This document shows, piece after piece, positions 11,535 through 25,717 of a DNA stretch of 33,113 bases. The position numbers were made by a program, and so were the translations under genes. Origin of the DNA: Nitrospirota bacterium (GTDB lineage: Bacteria; Nitrospirota; Thermodesulfovibrionia; UBA6902). Where the stretch lies: NCBI GenBank assembly GCA_016234115.1, contig JACRHD010000062.1, positions 1 through 33,113 on the forward strand, written 5' to 3'. The notes below the pieces were generated by a model that saw only the letters and a list, made by a program, of their open reading frames with translations, had not been told where the DNA came from and ran no database searches. How positions within the stretch are numbered: the first letter of the stretch is position 1; every line of letters starts with the position of its first letter.

Positions 11535-11711
11535 ATGAACATGGAGCATCTCCTGAAATCGCTTGCCCGGCCTAACATCGGCAGGACCGCATCGTTTGTG
11601 ATAGACGCATGGGACAGCGACGCGCAGGAGGTTGAGGAAAAGATTGAGCGGTTGTGTAAGGTGTTTGAGGATAGCAAGACTACTCTTATGGAAAAACGGG
11701 ATCATCTGTAA
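11535..11711 (+). CDS. doubtful small ORF or decayed gene remnant
   Basis: A 58-residue frame starting MNMEHLLKSLARPNIGR and ending 12 nt before the exchanger gene. Its C-terminal half (DAQEVEEKIERLCKVFEDSKTTL) looks like a genuine helix. In frame, ATG at 11472 would extend it. Just upstream, other frames hold protein-like but interrupted segments (for example ENIEDAPSHTSLLEQFAGEKAVVAG ending near 11459), so the whole 11335-11711 stretch may be a frameshifted relic. No Shine-Dalgarno is convincing. Confidence 0.3.
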   Translation: MNMEHLLKSLARPNIGRTASFVIDAWDSDAQEVEEKIERLCKVFEDSKTTLMEKRDHL

Positions 11712-11723
11712 GAAAGGAATGTT

Positions 11724-12722
11724 ATGCTGCTCTGGGTCGTCTTTCTGCTGTGTACGTCGGTAATCGTTTATTCAGGCACAAAACTCTCCAAATACGGCGA
11801 TATCATAGCCGAAAAGACAGGTCTTGGAGGCACGTGGATAGGCGTTGCATTGATGGCGTCCGTCACGTCGCTTCCGGAGTTCGTCACCGGAACAAGCTCA
11901 GTTACTTATGCAGGCGTTCCGGACATTGCCGCGGGGGACGTGCTCGGCAGTTGCGTTTTCAATATGCTTATCCTTGCCATTTTAGATGGCATTCAGCGCC
12001 CTGTGCCGATCTCTGCAAGGGCGCATTACGGTCATGTCCTTACAGCGGGATTCGGGATACTGCTTCTCAGTATAGCCGCCGCAGGCTTATTCCTTGATCA
12101 GGAAATGTTAAACCTTGGCTGGATAGGGATATACAGTTTGGTATTTGTGGTTATTTATTTTATTGCGATGAGGCTGGTCTTTATCTATGAAAAAAGGCAG
12201 ATAGCAGCGTATGTCAGAGAAGCGGCGAAGGGGCTGAAATATGAGAAAGTATCAACCCGGACTGCCGTAACTCATTATGTCATCAATGCGCTCTTTGTTA
12301 TTGCCGCGGCAACATTCCTTCCGAAAATCGGAGAAGGGCTTGCAGAGCTCACCGGTCTCGGACAGACGTTTGTCGGTAATATCTTCATCGCCGTATCTAC
12401 TTCTCTTCCTGAGGTAGTGGTTTCAGTCTCTGCCGTAAGAATGGGCGCGATAGACATGGGAATCGGCAACCTGTTCGGAAGCAACATTTTTAATATCTTC
12501 ATCCTTGCCGTCGACGATTTTCTATTCTTCAAAGGGCCTATTCTTGCTTTTGCCGATACTAACCATATAATCTCCGCATTGTCGGCCATCGCAATGACAA
12601 CTGTGGCAATCATCGGGCTGACTTACCGAGCGGAAAAGAAAACATTATTTTTAGCCTGGGATTCCATCGGGATATCGCTGATATATGTGGTCAACCTTAT
12701 GCTGCTGTATGTCTTGAGATAA
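11724..12722 (+). CDS. Na+/Ca2+ exchanger-family (CaCA) membrane protein, YrbG-like
   Basis: A 332-residue polytopic inner-membrane protein of about ten segments, in two inverted halves. Each half has the alpha-repeat of the CaCA superfamily: ASVTSLPEFVTGTSSV with GDVLGSCVFNML in the first (about 47-90), and AVSTSLPEVVVSVSAV with GNLFGSNIFNIFIL in the second (about 223-270). The acidic residue in SLPE of each repeat is the cation-coordinating position in the family. A cytoplasmic loop (about 155-180) separates the halves. Family members exchange Ca2+ for Na+ or H+; the substrate here is unproven. It has AAAGGA at 11713-11718 as Shine-Dalgarno. It is preceded by two small exported proteins with possible metal ligands. 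Confidence 0.88.
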   Translation: MLLWVVFLLCTSVIVYSGTKLSKYGDIIAEKTGLGGTWIGVALMASVTSLPEFVTGTSSVTYAGVPDIAAGDVLGSCVFNMLILAILDGIQRPVPISARAHYGHVLTAGFGILLLSIAAAGLFLDQEMLNLGWIGIYSLVFVVIYFIAMRLVFIYEKRQIAAYVREAAKGLKYEKVSTRTAVTHYVINALFVIAAATFLPKIGEGLAELTGLGQTFVGNIFIAVSTSLPEVVVSVSAVRMGAIDMGIGNLFGSNIFNIFILAVDDFLFFKGPILAFADTNHIISALSAIAMTTVAIIGLTYRAEKKTLFLAWDSIGISLIYVVNLMLLYVLR

Positions 12723-12734
12723 GTTTACGGCGAA

Positions 12735-12772
12735 AAAGGGTTTTCAAGGCTGTGACCCCTTGAAAACCCTTT
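12735..12772. terminator. two-way hairpin terminator after the exchanger gene
   Basis: A perfect 15-bp stem: AAAGGGTTTTCAAGG (12735-12749) with its complement at 12758-12772. Read on the minus strand it runs into TTTTT. A second, mutually exclusive pairing exists between GTGACCCCTT (12752-12761) and AAGGGGTCAC (12779-12788). Confidence 0.6.
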
Positions 12773-12801
12773 CGTGGGAAGGGGTCACGCCATAGTGCCG
12801 A

Positions 12802-12960
12802 TCAGCGATTTTTTTTTAATGCCTTAAGGTCTCCGACATCAATCACTATGCTTTTGCCGATCCTGCGCGACCGAAGGATACCCTCGGCCACCCATCTCCT
12901 GACTGTTATTTCAGCCAGGGCGTGAACCCTCGATGTTTTTTCCCCTTGTCTCCCTTGCCC
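12802..12960 (-). pseudogene. remnant of an HTH_17/excisionase-type DNA-binding protein
   Basis: The minus strand reads ITVRRWVAEGILRSRRIGKSI followed by VIDVGDLKALKKNR and a TGA at 12802-12804. This matches the second half of helix-turn-helix domains of the HTH_17/excisionase type (TVxRWIxxGxLPAxRIGRxxxI). The first helix is not intact and the frame meets a stop about 50 codons upstream with no start codon. A neighbouring frame continues with HEYVPAAIRAEIV, suggesting a frameshift. It is probably a dead gene; the pattern match is short. Confidence 0.4.
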
Positions 12961-13129
12961 GGTTACGTCCGCAAAGACCCGTCACTATCTCTGCGCGGAT
13001 CGCCGCCGGCACATACTCATGATCGATCAACCAGGACCGCGCTTATTCGTGCCGGTCCAGTGTATGCATTTTGTATGCAAATTTGGATTAAAATGACCGT
13101 TTCTGACATGTTTTGATAGGCAATAAAAG

Positions 13130-13163
13130 AAGGGTTTCAAGGTCATAAGTCCTTGAAACCCTT
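13130..13163 (-). terminator. terminator of the tRNA cluster
   Basis: The stem is AAGGGTTTCAAGG (13130-13142) with its perfect complement at 13151-13163. On the minus strand it ends in TTCTTTT. It lies 14 nt beyond the 3' end of tRNA-Lys, the last tRNA of the cluster. Confidence 0.65.
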
Positions 13164-13176
13164 TTAAAATATACCA

Positions 13177-13249
<73 letters not shown>

Positions 13250-13260
13250 TAAGAAGCGAC

Positions 13261-13316
13261 CAGCTATCAGCAGTCAGCTTTCAGAAAAAGCTGACTGCTG
13301 AGCGCTGTAAGCTGTA
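13261..13316. repeat. heptad palindrome D
   Basis: Words CAGCTAT, CAGCAGT, CAGCTTT, CAGAAAA on the left and AGCTGAC, TGCTGAG, CGCTGTA, AGCTGTA on the right. It fills the spacer between tRNA-Lys and tRNA-Arg(CCG). Confidence 0.8.
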
Positions 13317-13338
13317 AATTTACGACGCAAAATTACTA

Positions 13339-13412
13339 CGCGCCTGAGAGGAGTTGAACCTCCGACCCTCGGCTTCGGAGGCCGATGCTCTATCCAACTG
13401 AGCTACAGGCGC
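13339..13412 (-). tRNA. tRNA-Arg (anticodon CCG)
   Basis: The acceptor stem is GCGCCTG/CAGGCGC. The anticodon stem TCGGC/GCCGA encloses loop CTCCGAA, giving CCG. The discriminator is G, and no CCA is encoded. Confidence 0.95.
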
Positions 13413-13418
13413 TTCTTA

Positions 13419-13485
13419 GAGTAAAGAGTCAGGGGCCGGAATCCTTTGAACTTGACTCTTGACTCCTGACTCATAACTCTAAACT
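13419..13485. repeat. heptad palindrome E
   Basis: Words GAGTAAA, GAGTCAG, GGGCCGG on the left and TTGACTC, TTGACTC, CTGACTC, ATAACTC on the right, between tRNA-Arg(CCG) and tRNA-His. Confidence 0.8.
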
Positions 13486-13561
13486 GGGGTGAGTGACGGG
13501 GCTTGAACCCGCGGCCCTCTGAGCCACAGTCAGATGCTCTGCCAGCTGAGCTACACTCACC
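13485..13561 (-). tRNA. tRNA-His (anticodon GTG), CCA encoded
   Basis: The acceptor stem is GTGAGTG/CACTCAC. The extra G-1 (position 13561) opposite discriminator C73 is the histidine tRNA identity pair. The anticodon stem TCTGA/TCAGA encloses loop CTGTGGC, giving GTG. CCA is encoded at 13485-13487. Confidence 0.95.
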
Positions 13562-13570
13562 GCTTACTTA

Positions 13571-13649
13571 GAGTTATGAGTCAGGAGTCAAGAGTTATGG
13601 GTCGGATTTAATAATTTTACTTAACTCTTAACTCCTGACTCTTAACTCT
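13571..13649. repeat. heptad palindrome F
   Basis: Words GAGTTAT, GAGTCAG, GAGTCAA, GAGTTAT, GGGTCGG on the left and TTAACTC, TTAACTC, CTGACTC, TTAACTC on the right, between tRNA-His and tRNA-Arg(TCT). It is the cleanest example of the 7-nt period. Confidence 0.88.
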
Positions 13650-13653
13650 GCAA

Positions 13654-13730
13654 TGGCGCGCCTGAAGGGATTCGAACCCCTGGCCCACTGCTTAGAAGGC
13701 AGTTGCTCTATCCGACTGAGCTACAGGCGC
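13654..13730 (-). tRNA. tRNA-Arg (anticodon TCT), CCA encoded
   Basis: The acceptor stem is GCGCCTG/CAGGCGC. The anticodon stem ACTGC/GCAGT encloses loop CTTCTAA, giving TCT. The discriminator is G, and CCA is encoded at 13654-13656. It is the first tRNA in the direction of transcription. Confidence 0.95.
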
Positions 13731-13736
13731 ATTTCA

Positions 13737-13807
13737 GAGTATGGAGTCTGGAGTCCGGAGTTCAGCAACTGACTCTTGCTGAACTCTATACTCAAAGCCC
13801 TGAACTC
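13737..13807. repeat. heptad palindrome G
   Basis: Words GAGTATG, GAGTCTG, GAGTCCG, GAGTTCA on the left and TGAACTC, TATACTC, AAAGCCC, TGAACTC on the right. It lies upstream of the tRNA cluster. Confidence 0.8.
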
Positions 13808-13893
13808 CAACATGCCTGAATATTTTAAACAAGCCGGGGCAATATGGCAAGTGTCGGGGGCAAAGTAATAAAAATTATATGGGGAAGGACGAT

Positions 13894-14532
13894 TTATTGA
13901 GGGTCCTCGCCTTTGATATTTCTATATAAGGCGTTATACTCTTTTTCGAGATAAATATAATTCTTTTCAAGCTTCTCGTATTCTTTGGTTTTCTGATCGA
14001 CTTGCTGCCTGAGGTTTTCCACTTTCAGTTCAAGGGATTTCTTTTCGCTCAGCAAATTCTGGTACACGTCCATTTTTACGGAGTCGCGGATTTGGTTATC
14101 GAGTCCTTCAGTCTCTTTCTTCATATTTTGCATGCTCTGGCTAAGGGCGGCATTTTCATTTTCGAGCTTGCCGATGGCCGAGTTGAGCTCTTTATTTTGC
14201 AGGTCGATTTGCGCGAGCATTTGTTCGAATTCCTCCGACCTTCCAGCCGCAGGGACGAGGGCCTGGACGGTCTCAATCAATTTCGTGTTCATGACCTGTA
14301 TCTGCTCTAATTTCTGCCGGGTCTCTTCATACATCCCGGGCCAGGCCGAAAGCGACTCGATTTCTTCTTTCTGCCTGTCGAGCTCGCTCTCAAGCCGCCT
14401 TATTTCACTGTTCGAGATGGTCGCCTTTATGGATATTTTCTTATGCCGGATAAAGAAAAATGCAGCGAGCCCGGCGCATATCAGCATGAACTGGACAAGG
14501 AACATAAACAGGAGAGCAGGGATATTGATCAC
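13894..14532 (-). CDS. membrane-anchored coiled-coil protein
   Basis: A 212-residue protein. An N-terminal membrane helix (about 4-28) is followed by RHKK, which predicts a cytoplasmic C-terminal part. Residues 40-205 are almost continuous charged heptads (for example NSAIGKLENENAALSQ and EKKSLELKVENLRQQ), indicating a long coiled coil; the PGM around residue 75 and the VPAAG segment near 92-96 may break it. No enzymatic domain is visible. The start codon overlaps the stop of the VWA gene by 4 nt, so the two are probably translationally coupled. The family is not recognised; a structural or scaffolding role is inferred. Confidence 0.8.
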   Translation of the reverse strand: MINIPALLFMFLVQFMLICAGLAAFFFIRHKKISIKATISNSEIRRLESELDRQKEEIESLSAWPGMYEETRQKLEQIQVMNTKLIETVQALVPAAGRSEEFEQMLAQIDLQNKELNSAIGKLENENAALSQSMQNMKKETEGLDNQIRDSVKMDVYQNLLSEKKSLELKVENLRQQVDQKTKEYEKLEKNYIYLEKEYNALYRNIKGEDPQ

Positions 14533-17457: not shown

Positions 17458-18984
17458 ATGAAAAAGTTAATCGACCGGCGCGAATTCCTTAAATTTGCCG
17501 GAGGAGTAACTGCCATGATCGTAGTCGGGTGCGGCGGCGGCGGCGGTGATAACGCCCCCGGCGGCGGAGGCCCCGGCGGAGGAGGTTCCGGTCCCGGCCC
17601 CGGCGCGGGCGGAGTGGGTACCGAGACCCTGAATTTTCATATTACCGACGCGATTAAGGAGATGATAACTCACGAGCCGAACAACCCGAACGCCGGAGCG
17701 TCGGAATGTTATTTCTGGGTCTTTAAGGAAGACCGCTTCCCGGCAGACTGTCCCGGTCCGCAGATATTTGCGGTGACAGGAGATATCATCACTGTCAATG
17801 TGACGAATGACCTTGACACGCCTCACGCCTTTTTCATCCCGGGCATGGTCGATACAGGACCTATAGCGCCCGGCGCTACCGTGACGAAGGAGTTTACTGC
17901 AGGGGCGCCCGGGGTTTATCTCTACCATGACAACCTGAACGAGCCCGTGAACCGGGTTATGGGACTTCACGGGGCCTTTGTCATTATGCCGGCCCAGTTA
18001 TCGACTCCATACGGCAACCCTACCCAAAGTGTACAGGCGTTGTTCAATGACTTCGGGACCACTCCCTGGTGGCCGGGCCTGTCATGGGCAGCGGGAGATC
18101 CGGCAAACAATACACCTGCCGCGCGGCAGCATATCTGGCTGATTCACGAGGCCAGCCCTGTGCTCTTTGAGGAAGTCGGGTTGGCTGCCCGGAGCGGGAC
18201 TGTCTTTAATGCGACCACATTCGTGAATGCCTTCACAAACGACCCATTTTTGAACACGAGCAATGATCCGAGGACAGTTGCGACCGCCCAGTTCCCCAAG
18301 TCGAACGTAACCGTAGGCGGAATAACGCGCGGCGTGTTCAACAGGAAGCCGCATTTCTTTACCATGAACGGCCAGTCAGGGTTCTTCTCGCACCACAATC
18401 CGGCTATTACCCCCATGTACCGCGTGGGCGAGCCTTGCGTGATCCGCATACTTAACGCGGGACTCAACACACATTCCCTACACCTGCACGCAAACCACTT
18501 CTTCGTGACGGCCATCAACAACGTCCCACAGGAAAATCCCATATGGGTGGACGTCTTCACTATTATGCCGATGGACCACGTAGACTATACGATCCCTTAC
18601 ATGAGGCCCCCTGACGTGCCTAATGTAAGGGGCATCGGCAGGGCGGACACGCCTTCTCAGACGCAGAGCGGCGGCAGGACGTGGCCGCCGGTCGAGGAGC
18701 TCGCCCGACAGATGCCTGCGCCGCCTGCTGCAACTTTCCCGATGCTGCAATCGCCCCTGTGCTTTCCGATGCATGACCATTCAGAGCCGTCCCAGACCGC
18801 CAAGGGCGCCAACTACAATAACGGCATGATTTCGGGGATGTATTTCTTCGGCGACCGGAACACGCCCGGCGCCATGAACTTCACCCTCGATGCCGAATTC
18901 CGGATGCTGTCAGGCTTCGGCCCCCATTCCGGAGAAACCGGTCCTGCTGTAGGAGGCTGGCCGCCGGAAAATGCGGGACCTTAA
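17458..18984 (+). CDS. multicopper-oxidase-like lipoprotein carrying copper motifs III and IV only
   Basis: A 508-residue exported protein. It has a twin-arginine signal (DRREFLKFAGG, 6-16) and a lipobox VVGC with Cys25, followed by a Gly-rich linker (26-53). Cupredoxin domain 1 (about 83-180) has the oxidase fold, but the usual HWHG is TPHAFFIPG and the usual YHxH is YLYHDN, so only one histidine of each pair remains. The C-terminal domain has an intact motif III, H339-x-x-H342-x-H344 (HSLHLHANHF). Motif IV is MHDHSEP (H439, H441), with Asp440 replacing the type-1 copper Cys. Alone it lacks type-1 copper and half of the trinuclear site. I chose the ATG at 17458 because AGGAGGT (17444-17450) precedes it and it begins directly with the signal; an upstream ATG at 17344 is rejected. 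The missing motifs are in the next gene. Confidence 0.88.
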   Translation: MKKLIDRREFLKFAGGVTAMIVVGCGGGGGDNAPGGGGPGGGGSGPGPGAGGVGTETLNFHITDAIKEMITHEPNNPNAGASECYFWVFKEDRFPADCPGPQIFAVTGDIITVNVTNDLDTPHAFFIPGMVDTGPIAPGATVTKEFTAGAPGVYLYHDNLNEPVNRVMGLHGAFVIMPAQLSTPYGNPTQSVQALFNDFGTTPWWPGLSWAAGDPANNTPAARQHIWLIHEASPVLFEEVGLAARSGTVFNATTFVNAFTNDPFLNTSNDPRTVATAQFPKSNVTVGGITRGVFNRKPHFFTMNGQSGFFSHHNPAITPMYRVGEPCVIRILNAGLNTHSLHLHANHFFVTAINNVPQENPIWVDVFTIMPMDHVDYTIPYMRPPDVPNVRGIGRADTPSQTQSGGRTWPPVEELARQMPAPPAATFPMLQSPLCFPMHDHSEPSQTAKGANYNNGMISGMYFFGDRNTPGAMNFTLDAEFRMLSGFGPHSGETGPAVGGWPPENAGP

Positions 18985-18989
18985 CCTTA

Positions 18990-19090
18990 ATTCCCCCTTA
19001 GGAAAGGGGGATACTGGTAAAACCATATTCCCCCTTAGTAAAGGGGGATACAGGTAAAACCATATTCCCCCTTAGTAAAGGGGGATACAG
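18990..19090. repeat. tandem 37-bp hairpin repeats between the two oxidase genes
   Basis: Two full 37-bp units (18990-19026 and 19027-19063) and a partial third (19064-19090) each contain TTCCCCCTT and AAGGGGGA around a short loop. Units 1 and 2 differ at two positions. Between the genes of a proposed heteromer, these hairpins could attenuate or stabilise the transcript. Confidence 0.85.
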
Positions 19091-19129
19091 GGGGTTGTTG
19101 AACAGGGGAGGCTTTTGGATGAATATTTA

Positions 19130-19174
19130 TATTTCAAAATCCCCCTTTCTCCCCCTTTTTCAAAGGGGGAATAT
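19130..19174. repeat. 45-bp dispersed palindromic repeat, copy 1
   Basis: TATTTCAAAATCCCCC, then a pyrimidine tract, then CAAAGGGGGAATAT. An inverted copy at 29368-29412 matches it at 44 of 45 positions. It can fold through CCCCCTTT/AAAGGGGG. Confidence 0.85.
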
Positions 19175-19220
19175 AGCAGAAACTGAGTATTAAGCAACAC
19201 AAGCTGAAAGGAGATATAAG

Positions 19221-20621
19221 ATGGCAATAACACCTAAATCAGGAACAAGAATTCGCCGCCTCAAGATATCGGAGATGGAGGCGGCGTGGACAAAGATGTG
19301 GGACCCGCCGAGGGAAAGCCCTCTCACACCGGAGCAATGTGATCCGACCAATCCCGTACCGGCATTTATGGCCGGTGTCTTTCAACGAGGGGCGCAGACA
19401 GCCAATACGGTCCAGCGCAGGCTTCTTGACAAACTGATTATTCCAACATGGGACGGCCTAAAGAATATTGAATTCATGACCTTTACCGATAGTGACTTTG
19501 CCCCGGCAGCATCGTGGCCGGCGGCGACCATACGTGTGCCGAGGGGCGTGATATTTCACGGCGCGACCCAGGCCCAGGGTCCCCCGCCTCACACGATTCA
19601 CTGGCACGGCATAGAGCCGACGCCGATGAACGACGGGGTCGGTCACTGCTCGATGGAACTCGGAACATACACATACCAATGGCAACCGAATTTCATCGGC
19701 ACATATTTCTACCACTGTCACAGGAACACGGTGCAGCACTTTGAGTTCGGACTTTACGGCATGCTCTTGATTGAGCCGCCTGATGCCTTTGATCCGACTA
19801 TTCCCATTATTGCAGGCGGTCCACCCAAGAACCCGGCTGGTTATCCGCGCAGGACCGCGGCAAACACATCGGCCTTCCCACAGTTCCCCGGGTTCGTCCC
19901 CGGAGACGCCACCTTCGGAGTCGGCAACGCGGCGGATACCGGAGTGGGAAACCCACATGCCTTTACCATTCCTTACGACGTGGAGGCCTTATGGGTGTTG
20001 GACGACCGTGACTCGGTATGGAGCGACCTGGCGAGTAATGCAAAAGCGTTCTACCCCGGCGGGGCAAATACGGCCGATGGACCGAATGGGCTTGTTATCC
20101 CGGTCCAACCCAGCATAGACGACCAGTTCCCGGATGGGTTCTTCCACGACTTCAACGCGGACTACTGGTTTGTAACCGGCGTGCCTGTGCCGGCGGCAAA
20201 GGGAGGAGAGGCAAGCATCGGCGCTACTGGACTCATACCCAACACTCACAACAGCGGTGTGACGGGGATGCAGATTGCCATCAACGCGGATTTAAACCAG
20301 ACCATCCTTGTACGGTGCCTCGATGCGGCTTACAACTCCGTGCGAATCACTTTTCCTATAGACGCCGTGATCATCGCCTTTGACGGCAGGGCGTTAGGAG
20401 TGCCGCCTTTCGCCAAGTACAATCATGCGTTTCTGCTTCCGGCCAATACCCCGATACAGCTCAGCACGGCGAGGCGCTTCGACGCGCTTCTGCGTCGGAG
20501 CACCCCATTCGACGGCGCTGCTACGGTGGAGTTTATTGACACCCGTGGTGAGAAGGTCACGGGCGCCGAGCGCCGCTTGATGACAGCGAAGATACCGATT
20601 AAAATAGGCATAGCTGTATAA
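19221..20621 (+). CDS. multicopper-oxidase-like protein with type-1 copper and motifs I and II, no signal peptide
   Basis: A 466-residue protein with an excellent Shine-Dalgarno (AAGGAGAT, 19208-19215). The N-terminus (MAITPKSGTRIRRLKISEME) is charged and has no signal peptide or membrane helix. Domain 1 (about 80-190) carries motif I as H124-x-x-H127-x-H129 (HTIHWHG) and motif II as H165-C166-H167 with H173 (YHCHRNTVQHFEFGLYG). This provides a type-1 copper site (H124, C166, H173, probable axial Leu178) and four trinuclear-site histidines. The C-terminal half (about 260-466) looks like a further cupredoxin-like fold, but no HxxHxH or second HCH is present. The protein therefore complements the lipoprotein encoded upstream, which has only motifs III and IV. 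Export by riding on the Tat signal of its partner is the simplest explanation (inference). A strong terminator follows. Confidence 0.88.
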   Translation: MAITPKSGTRIRRLKISEMEAAWTKMWDPPRESPLTPEQCDPTNPVPAFMAGVFQRGAQTANTVQRRLLDKLIIPTWDGLKNIEFMTFTDSDFAPAASWPAATIRVPRGVIFHGATQAQGPPPHTIHWHGIEPTPMNDGVGHCSMELGTYTYQWQPNFIGTYFYHCHRNTVQHFEFGLYGMLLIEPPDAFDPTIPIIAGGPPKNPAGYPRRTAANTSAFPQFPGFVPGDATFGVGNAADTGVGNPHAFTIPYDVEALWVLDDRDSVWSDLASNAKAFYPGGANTADGPNGLVIPVQPSIDDQFPDGFFHDFNADYWFVTGVPVPAAKGGEASIGATGLIPNTHNSGVTGMQIAINADLNQTILVRCLDAAYNSVRITFPIDAVIIAFDGRALGVPPFAKYNHAFLLPANTPIQLSTARRFDALLRRSTPFDGAATVEFIDTRGEKVTGAERRLMTAKIPIKIGIAV

Positions 20622-20986: not shown

Positions 20987-23299
20987 ATGAAAACTAAATT
21001 AGGACAGACAATAATCATCATTGCCATCCTTGCGCTTTTCTTACCGGCTGCTGTTCATGCCCAGTTGAGCGCCTTCGGTCCTCCGGACCCTGATCACGCC
21101 TTCCCCATGTGGTATCAGGACGCGAACGGCCTGGCCTTGGGTCCATGCCTTGAATCCAACCTGTTCTGTCACTTGCCGCTGTTCGGAGAGGAATTGAGGT
21201 TCAACCCGTTTCAGCCGGTTGACTTCCCGGGCAACTTCCCTTCCGAATTCTCGTACTTTACTGCGGAGGCGTTTGTGTCAAGCCCGTTTAATCCCATCAA
21301 ACGTTTTGAGATGGCGCTGCTGGCAGGCTTCTTCAGGGAAGTCCCTGCTGCCGGAGACCAGGTGGGCTTTGTCAGTCTCAGTATAAGAGTTGACAATATT
21401 GTGACTGCCGGTGATTATGCCGTTGTCCATCCTTACGGAGTGCGAGTGTTCAGAAACGTTCAGGCCGGCGGACTGATCAGGGTGGACCCGGCGGAGATCA
21501 ATCTTATATCCGTGCCGCTGGACTTTGAGACCCCGAGGCAGCAGTTTGTCGGGCCGTTCCTTGAGAGCTCCGATCCGTCCAACAAGGACGTCCTTGACCC
21601 CATTACCGGAAATATCTATTTGACGAACCCCCTGACCTCCGTCACCGTCACAGGCAGTCCTTTCGCCACAAATTTCGTACGGGTCGAAAGGGTCGAGCTG
21701 GACGCGAATGACAACATCATAAATGTACTTGAAATCATAGATCAGACCGACCGGTTCTTTCTCTTCGGAAAAAAGGTCTCTGCACTGAGCATGTCTCCCG
21801 CAGCTCTTATATTCCCTGAACAGAATATCGCGCCGGTTTCTTCGGACATGTCAGTCACAGTGACCAATGCGAGCATATTGAGGTCCCCGCGTCTCGCGCA
21901 GATCGCAGTAACAGGACCTGACGCTGCCGATTTTACTATTCCGGCCGCGCTTGACGGGTGTTCCAATATTGACCTTAATCCATCGGCGTCATGCGCGTTT
22001 ACCGTGCGTTTCAGCGGCGCCGCAGGCAGTCCTGACAGGAACGCGACTGTAACCGTTCAGGGCGCCGCCGCAGACTTTTCTCCAATGACTATTCCTGTGA
22101 GCGGGGCAATCGATTCAGTACCGCCCGCGGTCACGGCTACCTTCCCTGAACGCGGCGGGCCCGCTCCGGCGAATATGAAAATCATCGCCCAGTTCGATGA
22201 CTCCATGGACCCCGCAACCGTTAACAACACGACATTCACTGTGTTGGAGGCCGGAGGGAATCCGGTTGCGGCCGCAGTGTCGTTTGACGGCAACAGCAAT
22301 ATTGCGGTATTTACTCCCTCATCATCCCTTACACAGGGAGTCGTGTATACCGCGACAATAAACAGGGGCGTTACGGATTCCGTGGGGAACCCTATGCAGG
22401 CGGACTTCATATGGAGTTTCACAGGAGCTGCCGCTGATCTGACACAGCCGAAGATAGCCTCGACCGACCCGGCGAATGTGTCCCGCGGTTTTCCAACGGG
22501 CTTACCCGTCACAGTGACATTCAGCGAGCCGATGTTGGGTTTTACGATTAACTCAAATACCGTCCGGTTAAGCACAGCCGGGGGACCCCTTGACGGCACG
22601 GTCGCTTTCGACGTTCAGACAAATACGGCTGCGTTCACTCCCTTGGTCCCGCTTGAGTTCGGAACGGCGCACACGCTTACGGTTGATGGTGTCCAGGACC
22701 TCGCTGGGAACATAACGGCTGGGGGCTTTACAACCACATTTACCACCAACTTTCGTCCCCCGGCCCCACAGTTATTATCACCTTCAAACAGGGCCACGGA
22801 TATATCGGGGCCTGTTACGCTGCGCTGGAAGAGGCCTGTGGACCAGGACGGCGACCCCGTCGGTTTTAGCGTCAGCGTGTGCAATAACGCCTCATTTATA
22901 GGGGGCGGACCCGATTGCCAGTTGAATATCGCTGTTACGGCATCCGCCCGGAGTGTGGATAAGACCAACTATGCGGGCGTTATGGGCTTGACGTTCGGCC
23001 TGGTCGGGGTCGTCTTTGCGGGCGGCCTGAGCAGGCGCAAGGCGATGACGGCAGCTATACTGATTTCCGCTATAACAATCGGAATATTCCTGTACGCTTG
23101 CGGCGGCGGAGGCGGCGGCGACGGAAACATCGGCGGCAGCGGCGACGTGGCGCCTCCGCAGGCCCAGGTAGAGGAGGACGGTATTATCCAGGTATCCGGC
23201 CTTACGGCGGGCATCACTTTCTTCTGGAAGGTAGAAGCCGATGACGGAAAGGGCGGCACTGCAGTCAGCGAGATATTCACGTTTTCGACGAGCCGGTAA
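20987..23299 (+). CDS. large exported Ig-like protein with an internal membrane/lipobox-like insert
   Basis: A 770-residue exported protein with a Sec signal (1-26, ending AVHAQ). Residues 27-265 form an unrecognised N-terminal domain with a Cys pair (CLESNLFC) and aromatic-rich surfaces. An ASH/choice-of-anchor-type Ig domain (about 270-385) ends in TIPVSGAI. Two SbsA/Big-type Ig domains follow (about 388-490 and 495-597), each with a DSMDPATV- or SEPMLGFT-type motif. A fibronectin type III domain starts at about 600 and resumes at about 725-770 (GLTAGITFFWKVEADDGKGG). It is interrupted by two hydrophobic segments: GVMGLTFGLVGVVFAGG before SRRK (about 663-684) and TAAILISAITIGIFLYAC before a Gly run (687-711, Cys705). 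The insert resembles a sorting helix followed by a lipoprotein signal. It lies 24 nt upstream of the peroxidase gene, probably in one operon. Confidence 0.8.
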   Translation: MKTKLGQTIIIIAILALFLPAAVHAQLSAFGPPDPDHAFPMWYQDANGLALGPCLESNLFCHLPLFGEELRFNPFQPVDFPGNFPSEFSYFTAEAFVSSPFNPIKRFEMALLAGFFREVPAAGDQVGFVSLSIRVDNIVTAGDYAVVHPYGVRVFRNVQAGGLIRVDPAEINLISVPLDFETPRQQFVGPFLESSDPSNKDVLDPITGNIYLTNPLTSVTVTGSPFATNFVRVERVELDANDNIINVLEIIDQTDRFFLFGKKVSALSMSPAALIFPEQNIAPVSSDMSVTVTNASILRSPRLAQIAVTGPDAADFTIPAALDGCSNIDLNPSASCAFTVRFSGAAGSPDRNATVTVQGAAADFSPMTIPVSGAIDSVPPAVTATFPERGGPAPANMKIIAQFDDSMDPATVNNTTFTVLEAGGNPVAAAVSFDGNSNIAVFTPSSSLTQGVVYTATINRGVTDSVGNPMQADFIWSFTGAAADLTQPKIASTDPANVSRGFPTGLPVTVTFSEPMLGFTINSNTVRLSTAGGPLDGTVAFDVQTNTAAFTPLVPLEFGTAHTLTVDGVQDLAGNITAGGFTTTFTTNFRPPAPQLLSPSNRATDISGPVTLRWKRPVDQDGDPVGFSVSVCNNASFIGGGPDCQLNIAVTASARSVDKTNYAGVMGLTFGLVGVVFAGGLSRRKAMTAAILISAITIGIFLYACGGGGGGDGNIGGSGDVAPPQAQVEEDGIIQVSGLTAGITFFWKVEADDGKGGTAVSEIFTFSTSR

Positions 23300-23323
23300 A
23301 AATTTGAAAGGATGGTCATAAGC

Positions 23324-25717
23324 ATGAAAAACAGACTGATACATAATCTCACTCCTGATTTGAAAGAGGGGCTGTGCCTGATTGCGGCGCTCGCGGTATT
23401 GATGGGCGCATCACAGGCTCGCGGGCAAGTGCCTGCCAACCCTCTAAGTTTTTTCCCGCCGATAGCATTCGAGGACCCGAAGGTATCAACCGATTTCGTA
23501 GCGGACCGCCTTGCCGCCATCAGGCTCGGGAAGGCGCTGTTCTGGGACATGCAGATAGGCAGCGACGGAATACAGGCCTGCGCGAGCTGTCATTTCCAGG
23601 CGGGCGCGGACGTAAGGCTCAGGAACCAGTTGAGCCCCGGCCTTCTTGGCGGCGATGTGGCATTCGGCAGCGCGGGTTTTCCTCAGTTCACCACGGATTA
23701 CACTTTGACGTCGGCTGACTTCCCATTTCATCAGAGGGAATTTCAGGACCGGCAGGACGCGCCGGTTGTCAGGGATATCAATGACGTTGTGTCTTCACAG
23801 GGGGTCGTCGTGGCGGATTTTGTGGACATCCGCCCCGGGTTTGCCGAAGATGAAATGGTCCCCATAGCCGATGCTGTTTTTAATAACAGCGGCTTCAATG
23901 TCCGAAGGGTACCCCCGAGAAATACCCCGTCGGTCATAAACGCGGTCTACAATCATGACAATTTCTGGGACGGCAGGGCCAATAACATTTTCAACGGCGT
24001 GAACCCTTTCGGCCACCTGGACCCTGCTGCCACAGTACTTGAAAATACCCTTGTGGGTCTGAGTGAAACTACGGTCAGGATCAGAAACGCCGGTCTCGCG
24101 TCCCAGTCTGTGGGACCTCCGCTGTCGGACTTTGAGATGTCGGCGGCGGGGAGGACCTTCCCGAAGCTCGGAAAGAAAATGCTCAGCCTGGTCCCTCTGT
24201 CAAAGCAGAAGGTCCATCCCGAAGACAGTTTTTTAGGACCGATAAGCAATTCCGGCGGGAAGGGTCTCAGCGTGTCTTATACCCAATTGATACAGCAGGC
24301 CTTCAGGTCGAAATGGTGGAGCTCAGACAGTATTGTGACATTCGGTCCGGGGGGAGAAAAACTTATAAGCCCGAACCCGGGACGCCCCCTCACCACGGAT
24401 GAATTCACCCAGATGGAAGCGAACTTCCCTCTCTTTTTCGGTCTGGCGGTCCAGATATATGAGAGCACACTTGTTTCCGACAGGAGCCGCTTTGACGAGT
24501 TTTTAGGCGGCAACCTAAACGCCCTGACCGCGCAGGAGCAGACGGGCCTCGGCATCTTCGTCGGCAAAGGCGCGTGCATCGCCTGCCACACCGGGACGTC
24601 GCTGACTTCCGCCTCCGTCCTCGTCATTCAGGGTATCGAAGACCCTTTCGTGGAGGCAGCCGGGATTGAATTCATGAACATGGCCCAGGGCAGCGCCTTC
24701 TACGACGTGGGCTTTTATAATATTTCCGTACGGCCCACTGCCGACGATATCGGCAGGGGCGGCACGGCTCCCGCGATCAACCCCCTGACGGGGCAGCAGT
24801 TTCCTCTTTCACGCTCGCGGCTCGCCCTTCTGAAAAGAGACGGCCTGCTGCCGCCGGAGGTGGACGCCTTCGTCATTGCCCTGCCTGCCGGCGATCCCAC
24901 CGGTGACAGGGTCGTTGTCGACGGCGCCCTCAAAACACCGGGGCTTCGCAATGTCGAGCTCACCGGACCTTACTTCCATAATGGCGGCGCGTCCACGCTT
25001 GAACAGGTAATCGAATTTTATTCACGCGGAGGTAATTTCCCGGCAGCGAATATAGACGACTTTGATCCCTTGATAACACAGATAGGGTTCAACGACGCGG
25101 AACAAGAGGCCCTGGTGGCTTTTCTCAAGTCGCTTACCGACGAAAGGGTCAGAAATGAAAGCGTGCCTTTCGACCATCCTGAACTGCTTGTCCCCAACGG
25201 CCATACCGCGGACGGCTCAACCCAACTGCTGCGCCTGCCGCCTGTAGGGGCCCAGGGCAGGGCGGCGGAAGGTTTACGGGCACTTCAGCCTTTCCCTGCG
25301 CCTTTAGTGTCTGTAGCGGAAGTCCCGTCTTCATCTCCAGCCGGACCCGGGACAACCGGAGGCGATGAGAGTGTGCCTGGAGTTGAAGGAGGCCGTGACG
25401 GAGGAGGCGGCGGCGGCGGCGGATGCTTTATCGCCACGGCGGCTTATGGAAGTTATATGGCCGACGAGGTGATGACGTTGAGAAGATTCAGGGACAGATA
25501 TCTCCTGACAAACGCCGCCGGTAAGGTGTTCGTGAAATTGTACTACACATATTCTCCGCCGATAGCTGATTACATAGCAGGGCATGAGGTGTTGAAGGCG
25601 GCTGCCAGGACGGCCCTGGCGCCCTTTGTCTACAGCGTCAAGTATCCTGTTCACGTATTGATGATAATCATTTTGATAACCGGAGTGATCGGTTTCAGGA
25701 AAAAGATAAGGGGATAA
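23324..25717 (+). CDS. di-haem cytochrome c peroxidase/MauG-family protein with CFI-box C-terminal domain
   Basis: A 797-residue exported protein. A signal peptide covers about residues 1-35 (ends QARGQ). It has two c-type haem motifs, CASCH (86-90) and CIACH (418-422), as in bacterial di-haem peroxidases and MauG. The conserved peroxidase C-terminal segment is [20 protein letters not shown]. It is longer than classical CcpA (about 330 residues) because of insertions between the haem sites. After a Pro/Gly-rich linker and a Gly run comes [16 protein letters not shown] (from Cys701), then [19 protein letters not shown] and [12 protein letters not shown]. This is the CFI-box CTERM module, ending in a membrane helix (about 770-790) and KKIRG. 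I prefer ATG 23324, since AAAGGA at 23307-23312 is well spaced for it and too close to ATG 23312. The family reduces H2O2 or oxidises protein side chains; the substrate here is unknown. Confidence 0.9.

Follow-up and report, generated by a model that had tools for sequence, protein, structure and literature searches.

Two adjacent genes of the 33,113-nt contig JACRHD010000062.1 (Nitrospirota bacterium assembly GCA_016234115.1; the whole stretch is called the window here) encode proteins, A and B, that are very probably the obligate subunits of a single heteromeric multicopper oxidase (MCO), with the trinuclear copper site at the interface between the second domain of A and the first domain of B. 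The pair consists of two paralogous two-domain units with complementary losses, rather than the two halves of a severed laccase. The MCO features that were tested, namely the domains, the eight trinuclear histidines and the type-1 copper (T1) set, are all present in the sequence, the trinuclear set only in A and B jointly. Because the half-sites are split between proteins whose genes always adjoin, are fused once and recur across many phyla, the enzyme almost certainly works only as the joined pair. The novelty lies in the sharing of the site by two subunits that are different proteins. The genes and their predicted copper-binding elements are:

17458 to 18984, forward strand: gene of subunit A, 508 residues, two cupredoxin domains, twin-arginine translocation (Tat)/lipoprotein-type N terminus, motif III and HDH only
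17746 to 17994, forward strand: A domain 1 (Cu-oxidase_3), copper ligands lost
18472 to 18489, forward strand: A motif III, H339-S-L-H342-L-H344, a three-histidine strand
18772 to 18780, forward strand: A motif IV, H439-D440-H441, both histidines invariant in the family
19221 to 20621, forward strand: gene of subunit B, 466 residues, two cupredoxin domains, motifs I and II plus the type-1 site, no signal peptide
19515 to 19787, forward strand: B domain 1 (Cu-oxidase_3), half of the trinuclear site plus T1
19590 to 19610, forward strand: B motif I, H124-TI-H127-W-H129-G, the T1 histidine and two trinuclear histidines, from type C template alignments
19713 to 19754, forward strand: B motif II and T1, H165-C166-H167 x5 H173 ... 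L178
19788 to 20606, forward strand: C-terminal part of B, second cupredoxin domain without motif III or IV

The motif residues read in the initial annotation are exact in the translations. A carries H339, H342, H344, H439, and H441 and has no HWHG, YHxH, or T1 cysteine; B carries H124, H127, H129, H165-C166-H167, and H173. When the two proteins are aligned, B residues H127, H129, H165, C166, and H167 fall on F126, P128, H157, D158, and N159 of A domain 1, and the residues found at these positions across the A family are F/A/Y, P/V, Y/F/L, an invariant Asp (D158), and N/P. The B segment NSVRITFPID aligns where A has NTHSLHLHAN, and the B strand contains no histidine there. With A domain 1 and B domain 2 free of ligands and A domain 2 and B domain 1 intact, the losses are complementary, domain by domain.

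Eighty-two A-B pairs were aligned and scored for ligands. The proposed division of all eight trinuclear histidines, four to each protein, is kept in 81 of the 82, and in the exception a contig end truncates the sequence. A residues H342, H344, H439, and H441 are invariant in all 82 aligned pairs, and H347 also never varies. In B, H124, H127, H129, H165, C166, H167, and H173 show no variation among the copies long enough to include them (one B is cut short at a contig end); this includes the complete T1 set (H124, C166, H173) that had been assigned to B and that A does not have. Leu178 indeed lies at the usual axial position; of 81 proteins, 66 have Leu and 15 have Met as the predicted axial residue. 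Conservation of the eight histidines holds down to ~28% identity. Columns that are 90% His or more number six in B, and all of them are predicted copper ligands, as are four of the five invariant His columns of A, and this pattern of ligand conservation is far beyond chance.

These residues bear on the idea that A and B are separate operon proteins, B being a blue-copper electron carrier with T1 only and A a structural or copper-storage cupredoxin, with no shared trinuclear site. B does have its own complete T1 set, and relaxed constraint would also yield a half-loss in each protein. We nevertheless regard this arrangement as very unlikely, for neither role needs the four half-site histidines that each protein retains at such divergence, and the obligate pairing and natural fusion described below also speak against it. 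At position 440 of A (window 18775-18777), flanked by the motif IV histidines, 55 of the 82 proteins have Asp, 19 have Cys, 5 have Ser, and 3 have Gly. Position 445, that of the second T1 histidine, is Ser, Thr, or Asp in the 82 A proteins, so A has no usable type-1 site even with Cys at 440. The 19 of 82 copies with HCH for HDH were considered as complete oxidases and rejected, since residue 445 is always one of these three and motifs I and II are absent. The view that HDH in A is a broken HCH was rejected as well; the motif is the same as the HDH of the type C two-domain oxidase 2zwn.

Scanning 84,980 genomes with the B alignment gave 78 loci, a further copy lies on an Arthrobacter plasmid, and 83 A-B pairs in all stood after removal of duplicates. 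They occur in Nitrospirota, Desulfobacterota (including Geomonas and Citrifermentans), Chloroflexota, Planctomycetota, Poribacteria, Minicystis, Bacillus/Neobacillus (Bacillota), Actinomycetota (an acidimicrobiian and an Arthrobacter plasmid), Alphaproteobacteria, and the archaeon Candidatus Methanoperedens. The source genome has three other pairs, two on contig C16 and a compact one on C20 (B search), and pairs are also present in other Nitrospirota. Skermanella aerolata (G433, locus L118) has seven separate pairs in its genome. A lies immediately upstream of B on one strand in all 83 pairs, with a gap of −208 to 279 nt (median ~38 nt). The unpaired copies are explained by contig ends (three B), an over-long open reading frame (ORF) through which one pair was missed, and an A broken into two ORFs.

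That scan was driven by B; an A-profile search of 396 Nitrospirota genomes and a comparison of 18 whole genomes, themselves traced from the loci, do not depend on it. The former gives 13 full-length A proteins, all of them neighbored by a B. The one A without a partner in this set (L126:8098-9003, genome G077) stops short of motif III, has no B, and is a decaying copy. In the 18 whole genomes, the A and B matches pair one to one by position, as judged by eye, save for one partial A on a small contig. Truncated and artefactual copies aside, no lone homologs are seen in 80 loci, the 18 whole genomes, or the 396 Nitrospirota genomes, and a full copper set was never seen in A or B alone; both results favor the heteromer.

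A natural fusion was also sought and found: L104 is a single 854-residue in-frame ORF, A then B, with no stop between. On Arthrobacter plasmid NZ_CP084562.1 (L128:3538-5885), the A frame extends into sequence resembling B and overlaps the frame of B itself, which looks like an interrupted fusion; this locus adjoins an Nramp metal transporter and a metal-dependent regulator. Across pairs, the identities among A proteins track those among B proteins (r = 0.90). Many B proteins bear long C-terminal extensions (L036:7706-9952 and 11618-14077, L050:8974-11172, and others), which in L036 are carboxypeptidase-regulatory-like repeats by inspection.

Two elements between the genes bear on whether A and B were once a single gene:

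18990 to 19100, forward strand: palindromic repeat (ATTCCCCCTTAGTAAAGGGGGATAC...) present three times between A and B, each copy 37 nt long
19207 to 19213, forward strand: ribosome-binding-like AAAGGAG before B, read directly in the sequence, the ATG of B being at 19221

On another view, a single gene was recently broken in this genome, perhaps through the spacer repeats, and the two genes are a pseudogene or an assembly artefact. The 236-nt spacer with its three dispersed-repeat copies is among the longest A-B gaps and would fit such an event. The chance of it is negligible, however, since A and B are as a rule encoded separately in every phylum examined, which already refutes it. Each gene has its own ribosome-binding-like site, with AGGAGG ahead of the internal ATG at 17458 where A starts on translation of the window, and the three other pairs of the source genome argue the same way. 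Both coding frames are intact and differ from each other, so the pair is not one frameshifted gene; a frameshift or split pseudogene was rejected on these differing frames and on the rule of separate genes. The repeats were rejected as the cause of the split because other pairs do not have such long spacers and the repeat is scattered elsewhere. It has 13 matches in the genome at two or fewer mismatches, some as inverted pairs on contigs C28 and C55, and is a dispersed repeat of the genome and no part of the enzyme.

Pfam recognizes only general multicopper-oxidase domains in the two proteins, all above cut-off (Cu-oxidase_3, 38.5 bits in A and 42.7 in B; Cu-oxidase_2, 32.6 in A). No PDB or NCBIfam family for the pair matches A or B above cut-off. 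For both proteins the best sequence templates are type C two-domain MCOs, the blue copper oxidase of Nitrosomonas europaea (3g5w) and a metagenomic laccase (2zwn). In 2zwn, domain 1 carries HTIHWHG and HCHx5H and domain 2 carries HAMHSHGH and HDH, which is what B domain 1 and A domain 2 keep. Type C enzymes and B also have in common T1 in domain 1 and two cupredoxin domains per chain. In the trimers that two-domain oxidases form, each trinuclear site is shared by two protomers, and type C is defined by T1 in the N-terminal domain (PMC13151041). Such a site between protomers implies that an inter-subunit site is ancestral. A type C MCO, however, is a homotrimer with all ligands on one polypeptide, whereas here the ligands are distributed over two diverged paralogs, neither of them complete. 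With motifs I/II missing from A and III/IV from B, no single chain type holds all trinuclear ligands, and the pair falls outside type C by that measure. A and B can be aligned with each other over both domains, and this mutual alignability and the shared templates, rather than a domain tree, suggest duplication of a type C-like enzyme.

AlphaFold2 models of joined A-B chains are confident. The model of L066, a window-type pair with A and B in one frame and the stop read through, has a predicted local distance difference test (pLDDT) score of 85 and a predicted template modeling (pTM) score of 0.88; the natural fusion L104 gives 87.6 and 0.89. The pTM is high over all four domains, which speaks for a definite placement of the two halves relative to each other. 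The best PDB match of the L066 and L104 models is MnxG (9bxa; TM-scores normalized to query length, 0.44 and 0.55), followed for both by ceruloplasmin and factors V/VIII.

In MnxG, motifs III-IV precede I-II along the chain, the same order as A then B. It is a single 1,217-residue chain of six domains with very weak sequence similarity, whereas the pair is two chains, and its T1 cysteine is in the III/IV half, whereas that of the pair is in the I/II half. Membership of the MnxG/MofA group was rejected on the T1 cysteine position and the number of chains. Descent of A and B by fission of an MnxG-like six-domain oxidase, instead of duplication of a two-domain one, draws on the shared motif order (HVFHYHVHQW, HCHLYP, HIHFVKFD, and FFHDH in the alignment), the best structural match, and the MnxG homolog 3′ of the pair in Bacillus sp. 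EB01. We consider it improbable. HCHLYP of MnxG is in the III/IV half and HDH in the I/II half, the reverse of the pair; type C two-domain oxidases top the sequence searches, with MnxG outside the best 60; and the alignment of A with B over both domains argues for duplication.

Other systems resemble the pair in chain number. Fungal heterodimeric laccases of the Pleurotus POXA3 type likewise combine two different polypeptides in one laccase; their large subunit holds all four coppers, and the small subunit has no half-site. The heavy and light chains of factors VIII and V are, as in the pair, cupredoxin A-domain chains in several polypeptides, but they are cut from one gene product by proteolysis and are not oxidases.

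The initial annotation also placed an export signal on A and none on B:

17458 to 17532, forward strand: twin-arginine signal of A with a lipobox-like end (MKKLIDRREFLKFAGG...VVGC)

The assignment to A holds in part. The window copy scores below curated cut-offs (Pfam TAT_signal, 18.7 bits vs 22.7), and the twin-arginine motif is present in 76 of 83 A proteins, most of the other seven being truncated or having over-long starts. B proteins have no signal-like hydrophobic stretch, in agreement with the earlier reading, and the L104 fusion has one Tat signal, at its A end. With a twin-arginine motif on A and no signal on B, joint export of the two proteins, already folded as a complex, is the simplest and most likely reading. 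Tat hitch-hiker subunits have precedents, as in hydrogenases.

The heteromer proposed at the outset thus finds support in complementary invariant ligands, constant adjacency, the L104 fusion, and a confident joint fold. From these we infer complex formation, copper binding, co-export, and catalysis. A, having lost its domain 1 ligands, would supply the HxxHxH/HDH half-site kept in domain 2, and B, having lost those of domain 2, would supply the HxHG/HxH half and the blue type-1 copper kept in domain 1. A domain 2 would pack on B domain 1, allowing the eight histidines to bind three coppers and O2 to be reduced to water. Electrons would pass from the substrate to the type-1 copper of B and through the Cys166-His bridge to the trinuclear site. 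The folded pair would be exported by way of the A twin-arginine signal, with copper probably loaded with or after assembly.

Several points weigh against this picture. The A-B complex is deduced from sequences and models, and the joint models are of single chains, by stop read-through or natural fusion, so they favor contact and do not prove a heteromer. The B loci were gathered with the patterns HCH[RK]NT.. or DG[RH]..GVPP, and conservation of the B HCH is therefore partly retrieval bias; A was under no such selection. H339 of A, at the usual position of a T1 histidine, is kept in only 71 of 82 proteins. Fifteen of 48 well-supported splits in the A tree conflict with well-supported splits in the B tree, indicating that some partner exchange or tree error exists. 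Finally, known two-domain oxidases are trimers, and a 1:1 pair would have no three-fold symmetry.

The pair has recurrent neighbors, one of which lies downstream in the window:

23312 to 25717, forward strand: MauG/MbnH-like di-haem peroxidase-type protein with a CFI-box C terminus, a recurrent neighbor outside the oxidase

Of 80 loci, 19 have a homolog of this protein encoded on the strand of the pair and within ~8 kb of it. Window positions 20987-23299 encode a secreted Big_5 protein, the N-terminal part of which (FPMWYQDANGLALGPC...) has no Pfam name but accompanies A-B pairs at 10 or more loci, those of Methanoperedens and Bacillus among them. Very large MnxG-type oxidases are encoded downstream in four loci (L081:12177-16349, L058:10866-15941, L041:1606-6762 on the reverse strand, and L067:10644-16067), directly 3′ of the pair or a few kb beyond. 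The large oxidase of Bacillus sp. EB01 matches the solved MnxG over its whole length (4e-261), and that of Methanoperedens is a clear homolog of the Bacillus sp. EB01 protein. Other recurrent neighbors resemble, by inspection, an SCO-type copper chaperone and a metal-efflux RND component. Large repeat-rich neighbors carry NHL, RCC1, and S-layer domains, and Ig-like ones in the window. The metal-linked neighbors suggest an extracytoplasmic oxidase tied to metal chemistry. That the substrate is itself a metal is a tentative idea with less than even chances, and an extracytoplasmic metal or phenol oxidase is our guess at the function.

Taken together, the pair probably represents a new architectural class of MCO, an obligate four-cupredoxin A/B heteromer that arose from a duplicated type C oxidase by complementary ligand loss, is spread across bacterial phyla and archaea, is exported pre-assembled through one Tat signal, and possibly serves extracellular metal oxidation. 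A search of the open-access literature for a bacterial MCO that is split, heterodimeric, or heteromeric found none, subscription papers being outside its scope. Public annotation names A a "hypothetical protein" and B a "multicopper oxidase domain-containing protein" in Indioceanicola, and gives both the latter name in Arthrobacter. Since A and B are handled separately, surveys of oxidase genes may double-count or misjudge them. If the heteromer is real, A or B expressed alone would yield inactive protein, and the half-sites would offer clean, separable mutants for the study of trinuclear assembly. The pair would also illustrate in detail how duplication and then complementary degeneration can act on single metal ligands, would be a probable instance of Tat hitch-hiking, and would stand as a clear natural case of an O2-reducing trinuclear copper site that needs two different gene products.

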